Source of the DNA: a virus
Strand: one strand, 5' to 3'
IMG/VR virus record: IMGVR_UViG_3300007799_000017
Span: 1-20,336 of that record
Length of the DNA: 20,336 nt
A model generated the notes under the pieces. That model saw only the letters and a program-made list of their open reading frames with translations. It was not told the DNA's origin and searched no databases. The position numbers and the translations under genes were made by a program. Positions 1-9,300 of this stretch are shown piece after piece. The first letter of the stretch is position 1. Each line of letters begins with the position of its first letter.

Positions 1-1236
1 ACTCTTAAAACTCAATTTGGCGGGTATTCAACTCCAGAAGAATACTTCGATCAATCTCAAGGAGAATTAGAATATCTGTTCAACTCTGTTTATAAAACTT
101 CACAACACTTACTTTTACCGTCAGCTGTTATAGGAACAAATCTTCAGTTAATGAACTTTAGCTTGTTATCTAACGGTATAGATATAGCTCACATGGGTTC
201 TGCAAACAAAGTTGGTGGTGTAGATCCTAAATTAGCTGCTCAAAACATAATTAATAACAATGATGATATTAGGAATACTCGTGAGTTTTTGTCTGATATT
301 TCAGAAAGAGGCTTGGACTTTTATGACAGAGATGGTTTCTTTAATCACGACGCTTTAACTAAAAATTTAGATGTGTTGTCATATCTATCTGAATGGGATT
401 ATTTAAAAGATCAGGTTGCTATTGGTAATAAAGTGAAAAATGAGATTAAAGGTTCAACACAATCTTTAAAAATCATGCTTTCTAACTTGATAGTTAATGG
501 ACAAGAAAGATTTGAAAGTGCTCAAGAGTTAGTAAATCAATATAAAGAAGTAGTTAGAGAGATTGTACAAAACAATCATGATAATTTACTGAAGAAAATT
601 GGTTATGATATTGATATCCAAGGATTTGATTCATTTGACAAATTAAAAAAATCTGTTCTAGAATCTAGTCAGATGAAAGCTGCTCCAGAAAATATTAGAA
701 ACTCTGTAGAGAATTTCTTTTCTGATCCGGATTTAGGATTGGAAGGAGTTCCTATGAAGAATAAAATAGAAAATGTTCTTTTCTCTTTAATTACCAACGG
801 TATCATTAGTTTTGATAGACCTGGTTCAAGTTATCCACAAACAGCACCAACTGGCTATGAAGCTTTAGGATCTAGAAAGTTTAATGAAGATGGAACCCAA
901 AGATCTAACCAAGATACATTGAAGTTTTATAATCCAATTTTCGATGACGATGGAAATATAACTAAAATGGAAGCGGCAGAAGTTATAATGCCGTTACCAG
1001 ATTATTGGATTAAACCATTATTAAGATGGGCAAAAACCAATAACTTAGCCAAAGCATTAGATAAGTTAAATGCTGATATAGAATTAAGACCAGAACTTTA
1101 TGAATTTAAAGGACTGCGTATTCCTAATCAGCAATTATCGTCTAATGATATATTTAGGGTAAAAAGATTTAATTTACCTACGATGCAGAATTATATTGTG
1201 ATTCCATCGGAAATGGTAGTTAAATCAGGTGGGGAT
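1..1236 (+). CDS. Virion RNA polymerase of crAss-like phage, exon 1 (5'-truncated by window)
   Basis: The frame is open from base 1 (412 codons), so the gene starts upstream; the ATG at 151 is only an internal Met. The coding end is set at T1236 by the intron P1/P10 pairing, not by the TAA at 1240-1242. The last ~45 residues run LRIPNQQ..., FNLPTMQNYIVIP, then KSGGD. After joining to exon 2 this reads SGGDFDIDKLN, the DxDxD metal-binding motif of the double-psi beta-barrel of crAss-like/YonO-type RNA polymerases, equivalent to the NADFDGD motif of cellular beta-prime. The upstream R.P.Q / F.P / I.VP pattern also fits that barrel. Family knowledge: such polymerases are packaged in the virion and transcribe early genes. 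The family assignment is from motif and context; the rest of the exon was not matched to anything specific. Confidence 0.85.
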
Positions 1237-2205
1237 TCTTAATTGAAGTTCCCTTTAAATTTTGTTAACTGACGGGAAGTACCTTATAGTTTTGTCTACT
1301 AAGCATAAATAGTAATATATTATGTGGCGAGAGTAATTACCTCGGTATAGTAAAAAAGATAAAAATTGGTTAATCCGCAGCCAAGCATCCTTATAGGATG
1401 AAGGTTCAACGACTAACGCTTAACAATAAGTTCACTAAATGTGTAACAAATCATAATGAAAAGTAAAATAACAAAAGACTCAAGAAATTTATTAATTGCG
1501 TTATTATTGGGGGATGGTACCATCAGTAATAACTTTGTTTTCAAGTTGTCCCATTGTATTGAGCAAACAGAATATTTGCAATGGAAAATTAAACAATTAA
1601 ATAATGCAGGATTAAAAAATAATGGTTTAAAAAGCTATACGTCCAGTTGTGGATATAATATAGGTAGTACCGTTATTTATAGTCAGCTTAGTATTATTCC
1701 TTTTATAAAATTGCTAAGAAGAGTTTTTTACAAACCTAAAAAGATTGTGGGAAATAGAAAACTTTTAAACAGATTAGATGCTAGGGGAATAGCTATTTGG
1801 TATATGGATGATGGACATATTAATCATCGAAAGACAAATGGTAGAATTCACGGATTTTATATAAAGATTGCAACATGTGTATGTAAAGAAGAACTTCAAG
1901 TTATTATAGATTATTTTAAAGAAGTTTGGGATATTTCATTTTATGCTTTTTCTGAAGGAAGAAATACATATTCGTTATGTTGTGGAACAAAAGAAGGAGT
2001 GAAGTTTATAGAAATAGTAAAACCTTATGTTAGTCAAATACCATCAATGACTTACAAAATTCATTATGATTTAAGCCAAAGAATATATGATGTTGAAAAC
2101 AACAAAATACGTCTTTGAGTAGACCTAAATGGTCGAAATGCAAAACATTGTTACGACAATGAAGATATAGTCTACTCTCATACGAAAGTATGAGTTAATA
2201 AAACG
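1237..2205 (+). ncRNA. Group I self-splicing intron hosting a homing endonuclease gene
   Basis: The core can be traced by eye. P1: exon GGGGAU (1231-1236) pairs with 1248-1253, with a U1236.G1248 wobble at the 5' splice site. P3: 1300-1306 with 1416-1422 (one mismatch). P4: 1323-1327 with 1375-1379. P5: CGAG 1328-1331 with CTCG 1341-1344. P6: 1379-1382 with 1403-1406, with P6a 1387-1399. The R-type element GTTCAACGACTA covers 1404-1415, and P7 pairs GACTA 1411-1415 with TAGTC 2168-2172 inside the S-type element AAGATATAGTC. P8: 1442-1449 with 2148-2155; the endonuclease gene lies in its loop. P9: CTCATAC-GAAA-GTATGAG, 2177-2194. The terminal G is G2205. P10: exon 2 UUUGA 2206-2210 with 1243-1247. 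Removing 969 nt joins two in-phase codons. Subgroup not assigned. Confidence 0.95.
1456..2118 (+). CDS. LAGLIDADG homing endonuclease, intron-encoded
   Basis: A 220-residue protein with two LAGLIDADG-type helices. The first is LLIALLLGDGTI near residues 12-23, with Asp20 as the likely catalytic acid. The second is GIAIWYMDDGHI near residues 111-122, with Asp118/Asp119. This spacing and the WYMDDG form are typical of the intron-encoded 'LAGLIDADG_2' DNA endonucleases, which act as monomers with two pseudo-symmetric halves. The expected target is an intronless allele of the RNA polymerase gene around the exon junction, which would drive intron homing. It is free-standing (own ATG and TGA), lies entirely within the P8 loop of the ribozyme, and is not in frame with exon 1. 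Both acidic motifs are intact and no frameshift is visible, so it may be active. Specificity cannot be read from the sequence. Confidence 0.93.
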   Translation: MKSKITKDSRNLLIALLLGDGTISNNFVFKLSHCIEQTEYLQWKIKQLNNAGLKNNGLKSYTSSCGYNIGSTVIYSQLSIIPFIKLLRRVFYKPKKIVGNRKLLNRLDARGIAIWYMDDGHINHRKTNGRIHGFYIKIATCVCKEELQVIIDYFKEVWDISFYAFSEGRNTYSLCCGTKEGVKFIEIVKPYVSQIPSMTYKIHYDLSQRIYDVENNKIRL

Positions 2206-5200
2206 TTTGACATAGACAAACTAAACATCTACTGGGCAGCAGATACACAGAATAAAATATTTGGTGAAGTGTTAGAAGATGAATTATCAGAACAATATCA
2301 AAATTATACAGAAATTGCTAATTCACAAGGAGAAGAAGTAATCAGTTTTGAAGACTTTAAAGTTAATTATAAAACTTCTGTAGATAGGATTTTACTTAAT
2401 TACGAGAGAGAGATTCTACTGCATCCTAGAAATGCACACCATCTACTTTTACCTTTAACGGATGAGATTTTTACTCAGGACATATATAATAATATGGTAG
2501 AAAAAGGAGTTGTCAAAACTCCTCCTAAGTCATTTTTGGCCTCAATGTTTCCTTCTGTTAATGTAAAAAATGCTATAATCTTTGTAAAAGGTAAATTTGG
2601 TGTAGGTATTGCTGCTTTAGGTATTACTAACAAATCTACTAATCAGGCAGATACATTAAGTATTTCTCAAAAATACTCTAATCAAGATGGTGAAGTTAGA
2701 CCAACTAGATTACTATTCAAAGGATTAGAAGGAAACTATAGATTAGATAGTTATACTGATGATAAAGGTACGATTGTATCAGAGAGCCAATCACAACTCT
2801 TAAATACTCAGGTAGATAATGTAAAAAATCCTATCGCTGTATTGATGAACATCAACATGCAGACGTTAAATGTTGTAGATTATTTAATTAGACGAGGAGT
2901 AAATCCTCAAACTATTATTTACTTACTTAATCAGCCGATGATTAAGAAATATCTAACAGCACAGAAATTAAACGAGTCTTTATTCAATAAAAACGCCAAT
3001 AGCGAATTATCTAGAAAAGATTTAATCAAAAACGTACTAAATGACAACGGTTATTTAGACACAGTTCTTCCAGATGCTTACACTGAATTTTCTATAGAAG
3101 ATTCTAAAATGTTAAGTAATATTCAAAAGGACACTTTGGATAGAGAACAGTTGAAATATCTGGCTTATTTTATTGACGAACTTCAACCACAAGCTAGAGC
3201 TTTTTCTGATTTCCAACAATCTCAAACATCTGATACTAAAGGTTTTAAAGACAAACAGATGTTGGATGAAAGTTATATTATTAGAGAACGTGTGAGCTTG
3301 TCTGCAATTATACCAGGATTAGATGTTAACAGATTAGATTCAAGTGGTGTGGTATCTCCATTCTATCAACTAGGTAGAAAGAGATATGAGATTTTTGATG
3401 AATTCTATTCTTTAGCAGATTCTGTATTCGGTGATCTTTTATTCAATTTTAAAAACAAGGCTAGCATAGTTGCTCCTGCTTTAGATAAAGACAAAGTTAG
3501 ACAAACTATTGAGAATGACTTCATGTTATTCCTAATTCATAATTTTGTACTCAATAAAACAGAATTCGATTCTTTATTGAAAGATAATTCTGTTGCTAAA
3601 AGAGTTCAGGAACTAAAGATTCAACTTCCGTCTAATCTGGTTTTAAAAGCATTTCATCCAATGTTGAATAATTCTACAGATAAAACAGACAATCGTAAGA
3701 TTGATAATTTGAGATTATTTGAAAAAGAATTAACTGCTCTAGACAGTAATGATATGAGATTGAGTTTGGAAGAAATTGCTGACTCTGATATTGAGTTGTA
3801 CACTGATATTGTTAAATTGTTAATGTTCCAATCTGGCTTAAACATTTCTCCGTTTAATTATAGAGCTGTTGTTCCAGTAGGATTGAATCAGAACAGGAAT
3901 GAGTTTAATGCATATCAGTATATATATCAAGATTTGTTAAGTAAGGCTGTAAGAGAAATGAGATCTCAGATCAAAACTGAAGGACAAGCTGTTCCTATAT
4001 TTAATCAGTTTATTACTTTGTTTAGTGCTAACAATCCAAAGTTTCTAAAAAAGAATTTTAATCATTCAGAGTATCCATATTCTTTAGCTAAAGAATGGAA
4101 TAGAGGATTGAAACAACATTTACTAAAGCCTGAAAAAGGTAGTGAAAGACAAATTCAATTAGGAGACGCTTACCACAAACAATATTTTAGTGAGTTGATT
4201 AATCCTAATTTGGGTAGTAATGTTAAAAAAGATGTTACACAGGATGTTGATCCAAGGTTTCTTCCTAAACATATTCGTGAACGAATGATTGCCGAACAAA
4301 TGACTAGTGGTAAACTAGTAAAAGAAGACGGTCGGTATTTTATTGCTACAGAAGAAAGTGTTTCTGAAGTAGACATTAATACATCTCAAGATCCTTACAC
4401 AAATGAACCTTTGCCAGCAGATTGGATGACTACTTTTGAGAAAGTTTTTGATTTAGAAGGTTCTTCTAGTAAGAATGTTCCTAATAGTTCTGACGAATTC
4501 TTTCCAACTGAAAGTAATTCAGTTCAAAACAATTCAGTAAATATCGAAAGAATCCAAAAGTTTGAAACACAAGTAGGACTCAGAAATACTGATAACAGTA
4601 GGAAGAGGTTTGTTGAATCTGATTATACATTAGCTTCTAATAAGTTAAAAAGACTTAGTAAGAAGTTCCCAGGTATGTTAGAACTTGTTAAAGTCTTAGG
4701 TGAAAAGGGTGATTCCAGAGTTTATTATAGTATTGTAGTTTCAGATTATGGAAAACGTATTCTTTCAACAGGAGAAACAAGCGATAAAAACTTGCGTGAA
4801 AAGTATTTTAAAGATAGTTCGTCTACAGATGCAAAATCAATTTTACAAAAAATCTCTAAATCAGATAGTAATTTAGCACTACTGGCTAAAAAACTACTCA
4901 GTTACGTTAATGCGAATAACGTTAATGTCACATTGGTTGAAAGTATTGGAGAACCTATATTTGGTGAAAATGGAGACGTAGCTCTTACTAGAGGTGTATA
5001 TTATTCTCGTAATAGTTTGAAAAATCCTAATTCAATAAAAATTTCAGAAAGCGCCTTCTATCCAGGAGGTAGGTCAGAAGGAATACTTATACATGAAATT
5101 CTCCACGCTTTAACCTTAGAAAAGATTTTTGATAGTAATTCTGATGTTGTTAAAAACCTCCAAAAGATATTTGAGTATGTGAAATTAAATTCACCTAAAG

Positions 5201-6312
5201 GAATATACGCGTTATCTAATTTGGATGAATTTATAGCTGGTATTTTTACAGACGCTCAGTTTATTAAACATTTAAAAACAGTTCCTCCATTAGACAATGT
5301 TAAACAATACAAGAACTTATTTGAAGAAATTTTAGATATGTTCAAAAAATTATTTAATATTACAGAACCTTCGGTTTTAGAGCAAGTGATTTCTACAGCA
5401 TCAAATTTAATAAGTGAAGTATCTTCAGAAAAAACATATTCCGATAGTCTTTCATCTATTTCTGAATTAGATCAATCTACATCTAATTACTCTCCGTCTC
5501 TAAAAATGTATGAAGGATTTATTCAACTGAATCAATTATATTCTGGAGAAGAAGTTTTACCATTTGTTGGTGAATCTGAATACTATAGATATTTAGTTCC
5601 GATGCTGTTAAAAATGAATCCTGAAGTTAAAACAGAGTTTACAGAGAATATTAAAAAATCAGTGTTTGTAGAAGCTGTGTCTCAAAAAGTTACCAATAAG
5701 AATTTAGGTATATTGTTAAGGACAAATTTTGATCGAGCTAGTGGAACTTCTGTGGAACTTTTAAATGCAGGATTTATTTCTGATAAAGCAGAAACTAAGA
5801 CTGTTGTACATGAATTGGTACATAGAACATTACAGAAAGAGTATGAGAAAAAGACAGAGTTTTATAGACAAATAAATGATGCTTTTGATCATGCTGTTGC
5901 AAATAGTATGAATAACTCACTGTACGGTTATTCTAGCCCTACTGAATTTTTAGCAGAAGCTTTAGCCAATCCTGAATTTATGGAAGAGTTGAACAACATT
6001 CAATATAAAGAAGAAACTTTATGGTCATATCTTATGACTTTGGTTTCGGACTTTATGAATAACTTGTTAAACGTTGAACTGAAATCAGATTCTGTTCTAG
6101 CAGAAGTTGTAAAAGTATCTGAACAGATACTTAATAACAATGTTAAAGAAATGAGTAAAGAATCTCCTGTCAATAAGTCAGATGTCCAAACTGAAATTCT
6201 CAGTAACTGGAATTCATATTTCCCACAATATGAATGGATGAACGAAAGACAAAAACAAATTACTGCTCAATTAGTTGAGGAAGGTAAAATAACTTTAATC
6301 TGTAAAATATGA
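2206..6312 (+). CDS. Virion RNA polymerase, exon 2: catalytic FDIDK, polymerase C-half, tandem zincin-like domains
   Basis: Exon 2 codes for 1368 residues. The coding start is the 3' splice site after G2205, giving FDIDKLNIYWAAD; the GTG at 2269 is merely internal. Residues 1-~650 continue the polymerase, including a GKFGVGIAAL stretch about 135 residues after the catalytic motif. A low-complexity Ser/Asn region follows (about nt 4440-4560). Then come two zinc-protease-like signatures: HEILH at nt 5092-5106, followed ~45 residues later by an NLDEF acidic segment, and HELVH at nt 5809-5823, followed by SPTEFLAEAL. Each fits the HExxH...E ligand pattern of zincins. The protein may mature by proteolysis, or the protease may act on other virion or host proteins (inference). 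It ends in TGA overlapping the next ATG. Polymerase call confident; zincin roles less so. Confidence 0.85.
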   Translation, partial: FDIDKLNIYWAADTQNKIFGEVLEDELSEQYQNYTEIANSQGEEVISFEDFKVNYKTSVDRILLNYEREILLHPRNAHHLLLPLTDEIFTQDIYNNMVEKGVVKTPPKSFLASMFPSVNVKNAIIFVKGKFGVGIAALGITNKSTNQADTLSISQKYSNQDGEVRPTRLLFKGLEGNYRLDSYTDDKGTIVSESQSQLLNTQVDNVKNPIAVLMNINMQTLNVVDYLIRRGVNPQTIIYLLNQPMIKKYLTAQKLNESLFNKNANSELSRKDLIKNVLNDNGYLDTVLPDAYTEFSIEDSKMLSNIQKDTLDREQLKYLAYFIDELQPQARAFSDFQQSQTSDTKGFKDKQMLDESYIIRERVSLSAIIPGLDVNRLDSSGVVSPFYQLGRKRYEIFDEFYSLADSVFGDLLFNFKNKASIVAPALDKDKVRQTIENDFMLFLIHNFVLNKTEFDSLLKDNSVAKRVQELKIQLPSNLVLKAFHPMLNNSTDKTDNRKIDNLRLFEKELTALDSNDMRLSLEEIADSDIELYTDIVKLLMFQSGLNISPFNYRAVVPVGLNQNRNEFNAYQYIYQDLLSKAVREMRSQIKTEGQAVPIFNQFITLFSANNPKFLKKNFNHSEYPYSLAKEWNRGLKQHLLKPEKGSERQIQLGDAYHKQYFSELINPNLGSNVKKDVTQDVDPRFLPKHIRERMIAEQMTSGKLVKEDGRYFIATEESVSEVDINTSQDPYTNEPLPADWMTTFEKVFDLEGSSSKNVPNSSDEFFPTESNSVQNNSVNIERIQKFETQVGLRNTDNSRKRFVESDYTLASNKLKRLSKKFPGMLELVKVLGEKGDSRVYYSIVVSDYGKRILSTGETSDKNLREKYFKDSSSTDAKSILQKISKSDSNLALLAKKLLSYVNANNVNVTLVESIGEPIFGENGDVALTRGVYYSRNSLKNPNSIKISESAFYPGGRSEGILIHEILHALTLEKIFDSNSDVVKNLQKIFEYVKLNSPKGIYALSNLDEFIAGIFTDAQFIKHLKTVPPLDNVKQYKNLFEEILDMFKKLFNITEPSVLEQVISTASNLISEVSSEKTYSDSLSSISELDQSTSNYSPSLKMYEGFIQLNQLYSGEEVLPFVGESEYYRYLVPMLLKMNPEVKTEFTENIKKSVFVEAVSQKVTNKNLGILLRTNFDRASGTSVELLNAGFISDKAETKTVVHELVHRTLQKEYEKKTEFYRQINDAFDHAVANSMNNSLYGYSSPTEFLAEALANPEFMEELNNIQYKEETLWSYLMTLVSDFMNNLLNVELKSDSVLAEVVKVSEQILNNNVKEMSKESPVNKSDVQTEILSNWNSYFPQYEWMNERQKQITAQLVEEGKITLICKI

Positions 6313-9300
6313 ATTGCGTAACAAAAGAAGATTTTAACTCTGCTATAGAACATCATAGATCTATTCATGATGTACGTGCAAACCAAAATGCAGAAACTAC
6401 AGTTAAGTTTTTAGATTTAACTCAAGAAAATACTGCTAAAATTGACGGTGCTTATAGAGCTATTGGTGGAAAAGCTTCAATCAAGCAATCTGTTACAGAA
6501 AAAGTTGGTAAGAAGTTTAAATATTCTAAGGAAAATCCATTGTTGGAACAACAAGGACAAATTGGTAATTATGGCCATGAATTGATCGAGTTTATATCTC
6601 GGTCAATTCTGGCTGTGACCAGTAGTATGTCTAATGAAGAAGCATATCAATATGTAAAAAATTGGACAGATTTTCCCACAGAAGGTTTAAAAAAAATAGG
6701 AGATAAGTACGGAAAAAGTGTAGACAGTCAATCTGAACAAAATTTATATGAAGGTGTCAAACAGAATCTTTTATCTATTTACAAACAACAACGTGTAATA
6801 AATAGGATTACTGGACAAACGGGGCAGGTTATAATTAAGCTTGAGCAAATTGTATTAAACCCACTAAAAGACATCGGTGGAACCATAGATTTAGTAGCTA
6901 TCTATTCAGATAATACTGCAGCTATTGTAGATTATAAAACTAAAATTATTCCTCAGTCTAATTTAGATGCTTTTGGTAATATTCTAGATGGAGACAAAGT
7001 AGTATATCAAAGAGATTTGGAAAAGTATAAACTTCAAACAGGAGAATATGGTGGTATTTTACGTCAGTCTTATGGAGTAAAATCTATAAGAAGTATTACG
7101 ATAATGCCGATTAAAATGGTTGTTGCTTTAAATGTTAGATCCCAAAAGTATAATAGTAAAATAACAGGATTAGCTTTTCCAGGTCAAGATCCTTTGCTAG
7201 AAAAAATACTTCCCTTTTCTAATAAAACCGGATTCAAATCTTTGGATGAATTTATTCGATCAATTGATTTACAATTAGAAAAGTTAAATAAAAGAGTAAA
7301 GACCAATCCTGAACAAAGAGATGAATTGCGTTCTAGAATAACTAAGTTAGATAACGCTAGAAAAGAACTTCTCATAAATCATAATTTGGATTCTGTTTTA
7401 GAATATGGTAAATCTTTAGCTAAACAAGTAGATGATGCAGAATTGGGGAATTTGACAATTCCAGAATTACAAGACTTGTTAGAAGAATTAAGGTTGCTGG
7501 CTTCTATTGCTTCATCAACATTTGAATATCGAAAATATTTAAAAGAAAACGATATTACTTTAAAAGGTAGATCGGCTGATGAAGTTGTAGAAGAAATAGA
7601 ACTGAAGATTGGATCAATGGTTACAGGGTTAGAAGATCGAGTTGAAATAGTAAAACAGGTTCTGTTTAATGATAAAATTGGCAAACTGATTGAAATCCAC
7701 ACAGGATATAAAATCAACGATGAGTTTGGTAACCTGGTTCCTTTTGCACAAGAAGGGTATTTTGGTAAAATCTTCTATCAACTATCTCAATATGATAATC
7801 CTATATTTCAGACACTGAAGAAAATCTTAAACGATATTAATTACAAAACGAGACAGAATACAGATAAAGTAACTGAAGAAATTACTGAAACTGAAAATAA
7901 AGTATATAGTTGGTTAACTTCATCTGGAAGAACTTTTGATGACTTGATTAAGATCATGCTTAATCCAGAAACAGATAATTTTTGGAGCAGGTATTCTAAA
8001 GAGTTTGCACAGATGTTGGAAACTTTAAAACCTGACGAGCTACATACTTATTACTCAGCTCCAGAGGATCATAAGACTTGGTATGCAGAAGCTTTAACTG
8101 AAAAACAAAAAGAAATTGAAGCTAAAAAATTAAGTACAAAAGAAGCTGATCGAGAACTTAACAACTGGATTAACACACGTAGTCTATCTGTTACTAATAA
8201 CAAAGCCGATCATTCAGAAGCTTGGGCTCATGCTAAACAATTCAATAATCTGACACTAAAAGATTCTCCTAAGAACTATAATGAAAATTATAAATTTATT
8301 CAATCTGTACCAGAATTGAACAACTACTATGCGATGTTTGAGAAATATAACAAAGAATTTAGAAGATTGTTGGGAGTGGATTATGGTAAATTACCGAATA
8401 ACTTTTTACCAAATATCAGAAAGTCGATAACAGAAAGAGTTTCTGAACAAGGAATTTCTGGATTCTCAGAAGGTCTTCAAGATTACTTTAAAGATTTTTC
8501 TATTAGAGAAGAAGATAAATCTGAAGATTCTACTTATAATTCTGACGAACGAATCCCAATCTTCTTTTTAAATAGATTTAGAAATAAAGATAACTCAATA
8601 GATATTGGAGAAAAGTCATATCAGTTTGGAAGATCGTTAATCATATTTGCTAAAATGGCATATCATAATGAAGCTGTAACTCAACGAGAAGCTGAAATAC
8701 TAGCTTTACAACAACATCTATCTGAAAATTCTGAACAAATTGTTCAGTCTAGAGGTAAGAATATGATCGACCAAATGGGTAATCATTTGACAGAGAAACT
8801 TCAAGCTTCAGATATGCCTGTTATCTTTAAATCTTTTGTCGACATGTATGTTTATGGTATTGGTATAAAACCTATTCTTGGTGATAAATCTGGTCGTGCT
8901 GAAAAGATGCTTTTAAAAGCTAAAGAATATTTTACATTAAAAGCTTTAGGTTTAAACGTAGTTGCTGGTTTAGGCTCTTTGATGTCTGCTAAGATTAACT
9001 CTATCATAGAAGGTAACAAAGGTATTATCTATAATAAACAACAGTACAACGAATCTCTTAAACAAAGTTGGACTGATAGAGAAAGGTTTTTAGCAATAAA
9101 TGCGTTTTTTGATCCAATGACCCATAGATTAAATAATCCAAGATTAGTTGAAGAAAAAAAATTTGGTGAAAGACAGTATGGAGATCCTACAATGAGAGGT
9201 TGGGTTAATAAATATGTTAACTCTAGAATGTTAATGAATGTGTTCTCTATTGGTGATCAATATATAGAAGAGTTGGTTACTGTTTCCATGTCTAAGAACT

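Follow-up and report, generated by a model that had tools for sequence, protein, structure and literature searches.

Mobile introns favour conserved sites. The closest precedent for the locus described here comes from phage PhiPA3, where the gp210 intron interrupts a virion polymerase gene. In the beta subunit encoded there, that intron directly follows two conserved Asp, and it carries an HNH enzyme (Birkholz et al. 2024, PMC11620839). PhiPA3 gp210 nicks the PhiKZ homologue, can disable the rival's virion polymerase gene and yields a competitive gain (PMC11620839). That introns persist where imprecise deletion is not tolerated has been argued generally by Swithers et al. (PMC2814812). Introns are reported to be numerous in crAss-like phages, group I introns being dense in the Delta and Zeta groups, and a LAGLIDADG intron endonuclease has been placed in the transcription block (Fig. 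3 legend); breaks in Zeta polymerase ORFs, through stop codons or frameshifts, are described as falling in DxDxD and have been ascribed to unknown mechanisms of expression (Yutin et al. 2021, PMC7886860).

We analyzed a viral DNA stretch of 20,336 nt (IMG/VR record IMGVR_UViG_3300007799_000017), called the window below, from a gut-type phage. Its left edge falls within the gene for a crAss-like virion RNA polymerase and cuts off the 5' end of that gene. We consider it very probable that the DFDID motif of this polymerase is occupied by a mobile group I intron that encodes a LAGLIDADG homing endonuclease (HEG), splices out of the motif and homes to it. The RNA would fold into a group I core, guanosine would attack after U1236, and exon joining after G2205 would give an intact polymerase message. 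When a crAss-like phage whose polymerase gene has no intron infects the same cell, the HEG most likely recognizes the conserved DNA surrounding the motif in that gene and cuts it, and the break would be repaired by copying the intron in.

Intron fold and exon join

The first reading frame of the window (1-1242) ends GGDS-stop. An earlier note on this DNA proposed a group I intron here, with P1 (U.G wobble at T1236), P3 to P9 and P10 traceable and with both splice sites at codon boundaries. Pairing and covariation over 18 introns confirm, at the level of sequence, that the insert is a group I intron positioned exactly inside DFDID between the first Asp and Phe codons (Table 1). For this analysis, 18 related introns were aligned without their ORF and nine helices were scored (P1, P3, P4, P5, P6, P6a, P7, P8 and P9), with P1 of the window, L020 and L037 placed by hand rather than from the alignment. 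In this structure 94.8% of cells were paired, compared to 77.3 +/- 0.9 in shuffles. The covariation score was 0.513, compared to 0.174 in shuffles and at most 0.096 in slid-partner controls, and 27 of the 47 pairs had changes on both sides. The guide pairing of the window gives a shuffle p of 0.06 alone, and values over the intron family range from 0.000 to 0.07. Group I hallmarks in the window intron include a P3-P9 core with the P3/P7 knot, the T1236/G1248 pair and the terminal G2205; self-splicing with guanosine is predicted.

The covariance model search suggested as a check in the note matched both halves of the core when the intron was searched alone: Rfam RF00028 aligned to 2104-2194 (E=1.8e-7) and to 1270-1416 (E=3.4e-6). 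A 663-nt ORF interrupts the core, which keeps the score of each half below the curated threshold. Two relatives at the DxDxD motif that have no HEG score above the RF00028 cut-off over their full length (64.6 and 63.5 bits). An Rfam scan of the whole window at E<=0.1 gave no match. All copies have a long stretch between the P7 5' and P3 3' strands, the place where subgroup IA introns have additional helices; it is about 60 nt in the HEG-less copies.

Excising 1237-2205 joins SGGD in frame to FDIDKLN with both splice sites in phase 0, so the codon-boundary claim stands. In blastp, the joined polymerase aligns to a crAss-like polymerase, the catalytic subunit phi14:2 gp66, in a single alignment that is unbroken and ungapped at the junction (E=1e-18, 24% identity). 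The note's claim thus withstood the homologue test that it had set against itself. The joined window KSGGDFDIDKLNIY lies opposite phi14:2 gp66 KTGSDFDIDKMYVM, and after predicted splicing the exons would read GGTGGGGATTTTGACATAGAC at the junction. The tblastn matches of the polymerase are Crassvirales. A PDB sequence search with 615 residues of the joined polymerase gave no match at E<=1, this being too weak a method at 24% identity. A search for close relatives with the window's own polymerase returned none, and no intronless near twin of the phage was found.

Table 1. Features of the window intron and its flanks, and introns assigned to each insertion register
Feature	Position in window, or introns	Strand	Basis or detail
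5' exon, polymerase catalytic subunit to first Asp of DFDID (…VVKSGGD)	1..1236	+	joined protein aligned to phi14:2 gp66
P1 exon strand GGGGAT, U1236 in U.G wobble	1231..1236	+	pairing
Group I intron (969 nt, ending in G2205)	1237..2205	+	P1/P10 and frame, RF00028 halves, covariation
In-frame TAA met by ribosome on unspliced mRNA	1240..1242	+	sequence
P10 intron strand TTGAA, partner 3' exon TTTGA 2206-2210	1243..1247	+	5 pairs, read from sequence
P1 internal guide sequence GTTCCC	1248..1253	+	6 pairs, G1248 opposite last exon base
P3 5' strand, partner 2140-2145	1260..1265	+	5/6 pairs changed on both sides, 99.1% paired
P4 5' strand, partner 1374-1379, bulged A in window copy	1270..1275	+	18-intron alignment
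P5 5' strand, partner 1368-1370	1280..1282	+	18-intron alignment
P6 1380-1382 / 1403-1405 and P6a 1386-1389 / 1397-1400	1380..1405	+	P6a 4/4 pairs changed on both sides
P7 5' strand GACTA, partner TAGTC 2168-2172	1411..1415	+	invariant in 18 introns
LAGLIDADG HEG ORF, 220 aa, motifs LLLGDGTI and WYMDDGHI	1456..2118	+	PF03161, phrog_11023, dN/dS
P3 3' strand 2140-2145 and P8 hairpin 2146-2150 / 2157-2161	2140..2161	+	18-intron alignment
P7 3' strand TAGTC	2168..2172	+	18-intron alignment
P9 hairpin 2177-2183 / 2188-2194	2177..2194	+	6/7 pairs changed on both sides
3' exon, FDIDKLNIYW… onward, remaining 1,368 aa of polymerase	2206..6312	+	splice sites, alignment to phi14:2 gp66
Register A, D/FDID	window, L002, L005, L007-L010, L015, L017, L018, L209		
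Register D, DF/DID, DY/DID or DL/DID	Zeta-like L022, L124, L147-L160; separately L037		
Register B, DFD/[IV]D	L003, L004, L006, L011, L014, L019, mini-introns L317, L321		
Register C, DFDI/D	L020		

A broken gene, or halves made as two proteins that assemble, would need no splicing, and split polymerase genes do exist elsewhere. We give this almost no credence: the ribozyme core covaries, with P1, P7, P9, P10 and the terminal G all intact, and each relative preserves the reading frame, with the insertion falling precisely between codons. Further, the 3' part starts inside the motif and its first listed start codon (GTG) comes only at 2269.

Translation of the unspliced mRNA would end at the early TAA, as the note stated, and the sequence there does give GGD-S-stop. 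The note went on to propose a switch, in which regulated splicing controls polymerase supply and the unspliced message makes a truncated chain lacking the second and third Asp and the whole C-terminal part. This did not hold up across 32 introns. The codons read into the intron before a stop number 0-37, with a median of 6 compared to 7 in shuffled introns; an early TAA is therefore the chance expectation. The distance also differs in L005 (11 codons), and a conserved product of the unspliced RNA was not found across the 32 introns. The Rfam scan of the intron found no riboswitch-like or other extra conserved element, no connection between splicing and a signal emerged, and most sampled relatives have no intron at all (see below). 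A switch is highly improbable.

Among 15 aligned polymerase relatives there are eight invariant columns, and five of the eight are the G, D, F, D and D of the motif. The motif is encoded without a break in 80 of 80 loci, which were themselves found by an intact motif. DxDxD is nearly the sole stretch common to these fast-evolving polymerases, which would make it a natural target for spread across distant lineages, and once there the intron would be lost only through exact excision. The claim that the intron chose the most conserved site, where it is hard to delete, fits this conservation, but the word ‘chose’ mixes targeting with later retention. The four registers described below show repeated targeting; targeting and later retention are inseparable in these data.

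Two features of the 3' exon lie apart from the intron. Far downstream of the polymerase motif, its polypeptide (2206-6312) has two HExxH-type motifs (GILIHEILHALT and TVVHELVHRTLQ), possibly marking metalloprotease-like domains; Pfam gave only a weak SprT-like match to this region (E=0.1). Another large ORF (1,337 aa, with a weak PD-(D/E)XK / phage exonuclease match) follows and begins at 6309, before the polymerase frame has closed at 6312. This ATGA overlap (6309-6312) likely reflects translational coupling of two giant transcription-block proteins.

The homing endonuclease and its probable spread

The HEG ORF, absent from the earlier note, is the most informative part of the locus. It sits downstream of the P7 5' strand and upstream of the P3 3' strand. 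Its product matches PF03161 (LAGLIDADG_2) with E=2.5e-20 (73.6 bits, cut-off 25) and phrog_11023, a PHROG of LAGLIDADG homing endonucleases, with E=2e-20, and the Asp is intact in both LAGLIDADG motifs. Pairwise dN/dS within the HEG family is 0.07-0.16, indicating purifying selection. Some relatives have an in-frame TAG at a conserved Gln (L017 and L018) or TGA at a conserved Trp (L154) of the HEG ORF, which therefore follows the altered genetic code of its phage. The enzyme would cleave intronless DFDID DNA, a target deduced from the position of the insertion.

Relatives (numbered with the prefix L) were gathered with HEG searches, DNA patterns of the 3' junction and the polymerase segment upstream of the motif. 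The family consists of 29 non-redundant HEG-bearing introns including that of the window, plus L209 and two HEG-less copies, and every one sits in the DxDxD motif of a crAss-like polymerase. Additional Zeta-like cases are found in the assembled genomes L210-L212. HEG relatives down to about 48% identity, along with L156 and L160 at 41%, are all in DxDxD. The next relatives examined, more remote HEGs mostly below about 45% identity, are in other genes. The L209 contig (JAGAKD010000106.1) carries a crAss-like polymerase with a related intron and is filed under a Lachnospiraceae metagenome-assembled genome; it is probably a mis-binned phage contig. In L124, from the Zeta-like phage record MT835470, positions 7415-7458 have a sub-threshold match to the CRISPR repeat family RF01363 (38.7 bits, cut-off 47).

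The HEGs are 65-80% identical where the flanking polymerases are about 20% identical; the window's HEG is 64-76% identical to those of relatives with a polymerase flank 14-23% identical. HEG identity so far above that of the flanking polymerase implies horizontal spread. The nearest relative of the window, L005, is similar in both (HEG 83%, polymerase flank 67%). Vertical descent with a passenger more conserved than its host gene is possible but unlikely because dS exceeds 1 and registers are mixed. Of 80 polymerase genes sampled through an upstream motif, 8 are interrupted at DxDxD and 72 (90%) are intronless. The two HEG-less mini-introns, both at DFD/ID (L317:3283-3555, 273 nt; L321:3283-3574, 292 nt), represent the degenerate stage expected in a homing cycle. 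Their bodies are 97% identical, and their 5' guide modules differ, each matched to different synonymous exon codons.

Homing would be compatible with a second role for the HEG as an interference weapon. It would cut the polymerase gene of co-infecting crAss-like phages at an unmutable residue, leaving rivals' progeny without polymerase. Homing into distant rivals would be rare, and the benefit to the host phage would retain the element. PhiPA3 gp210 is a precedent for such competition; the HEG is under purifying selection and its target is a catalytic motif; and with flanks only about 20% identical, repair by recombination should often fail. However, plain homing also predicts purifying selection, HEG-less copies persist and intronless polymerase genes are the large majority of those sampled. 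The competition and cleavage evidence comes by analogy from PhiPA3 rather than from crAss-like phages, and we see this role as possible but doubtful.

Four registers in one motif

The introns use four successive codon boundaries (D/FDID, DF/DID, DFD/ID and DFDI/D), which are all of the internal boundaries of the motif (Table 1). Insertion is always at a codon boundary, and once the exons are joined every relative encodes G(S/G/F)D-x-D-(I/V)-D; intron length modulo 3 varies among relatives. A single HEG clade limited to the DxDxD motif of crAss-like polymerases, and its four registers, appear to be new here. No description of the four registers was found in the literature searched, which covered the main text of openly available papers.

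Guides and exon codons are fitted to the register, as described by the following counts, which come from related, non-independent introns and are descriptions rather than tests. T is the final base of the codon preceding the splice site in all 29 introns. The first Asp codon is GAT in 10/10 genes at register A compared to 25/80 intronless genes, and the Phe codon is TTC in 6/6 at register B compared to 16/80. When the U.G pair is required, an intron's own boundary is the best guide fit among the four for 25 of 29 introns. Without this rule, guide-to-boundary pairing does not discriminate (13/29) because P1 and P10 pair with one continuous stretch of the joined exon. In the window itself the guide pairs slightly better with the neighboring boundary DF/ (18 versus 13 on a crude score). 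The motif's codons, GAY-TTY-GAY-ATH-GAY, would allow a T at three off-boundary positions, none of which is used as an insertion site.

The polymerase-motif introns group together as a single clade (100/98) when the HEGs are placed on a tree, and several register changes are required within it. For the non-Zeta part of the tree, register A as a single clade was rejected with AU p 0.004 and register B with AU p 0.0005; these values apply to register labels known beforehand, non-independent sequences and a tree in which 5 of 15 forks are strongly supported. Pairs of relatives show the same pattern. The polymerases of L003 (B) and L007 (A) share about 59-70% identity in the region of the motif, the value varying with the alignment used, yet their registers differ. 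L006 (B) and L209 (A) have introns 85% identical over 817 nt, including ribozyme and HEG, and polymerases 61% identical, and again the registers differ. In L209 the 5' guide module is 90% identical to that of L018 (register A) and the body 84% identical to L006, so this intron looks like a chimera in which the P1 module was replaced (the 5' module comparison leaves out the window and L020).

Alternatively, the four registers could be independent first insertions of different introns with related HEGs, swapped between resident introns. It is known that HEGs can pass from one intron to another, the Zeta-like DF/DID introns form one well separated clade (100/100), and 5' guide modules can differ while bodies agree. 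We find this unlikely: the ribozyme bodies of introns in different registers are related too, as in L006 and L209, and L209 has an L018-like guide module on an L006-like body.

We instead favor changes of register within one lineage. The insertion register most likely changed several times, codon by codon along the motif, with the guide refitted each time, and the motif looks like a landing site that has been hit repeatedly. Shifts may have come about by recombination replacing the P1 module, perhaps while homing into a partly matching site. Reverse splicing into neighboring positions was considered as another route, and a one-nucleotide ‘slide’ is described for fungal rDNA introns (PMC1299323). 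Recombination is preferred because all shifts are whole codons and L209 looks like a P1-module chimera. In its fullest form, which we see as possible but doubtful, the motif would be a walking homing site: the intron would move in whole-codon steps by swapping only its 5' guide (P1), enabled by the T-ending quasi-repeat, and would also cut rivals' polymerase genes at unchangeable residues.

Comparison with known systems

Here one intron lineage occupies every internal codon boundary of the same catalytic motif in a widespread group of gut phages. Two questions thereby become accessible to direct experiment: by what small steps a group I intron shifts its insertion site, and whether an HEG aimed at an unmutable residue serves phages as a weapon when they co-infect a cell. 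A further gain is a rule for repairing the annotation of crAss-like polymerase genes. In particular, Zeta-like introns at DF/DID or DY/DID may explain at least some of the reported disruptions of the Zeta DxDxD motif.

By blastn, the intron core (1257-1427) matches intron sequence of Twort-like, SPO1-like, N4-like and PhiPA3 phages. The DNA polymerase-type introns of Twort, SPO1 and PhiPA3 are 70-75% identical to the window's core over 150-170 nt. These introns are in other host genes; every relative of the HEG at the level of about 70% identity is found in a crAss-like polymerase. Gp17 of Salmonella phage PVP-SE1, a LAGLIDADG_2 HEG beside the DNA polymerase, is homologous to the window HEG (30% identity) but belongs to a different host gene and a different phage group.

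The window intron is like PhiPA3 gp210 in pairing a putative group I intron with a homing endonuclease in a phage virion polymerase gene, beside invariant Asp codons. PhiPA3 gp210 is an HNH nicking enzyme in a beta-type subunit of a nucleus-forming jumbo phage, at one register. In contrast, the window family has a LAGLIDADG enzyme at the DxDxD motif (beta'-type) of crAss-like phages, in four registers.
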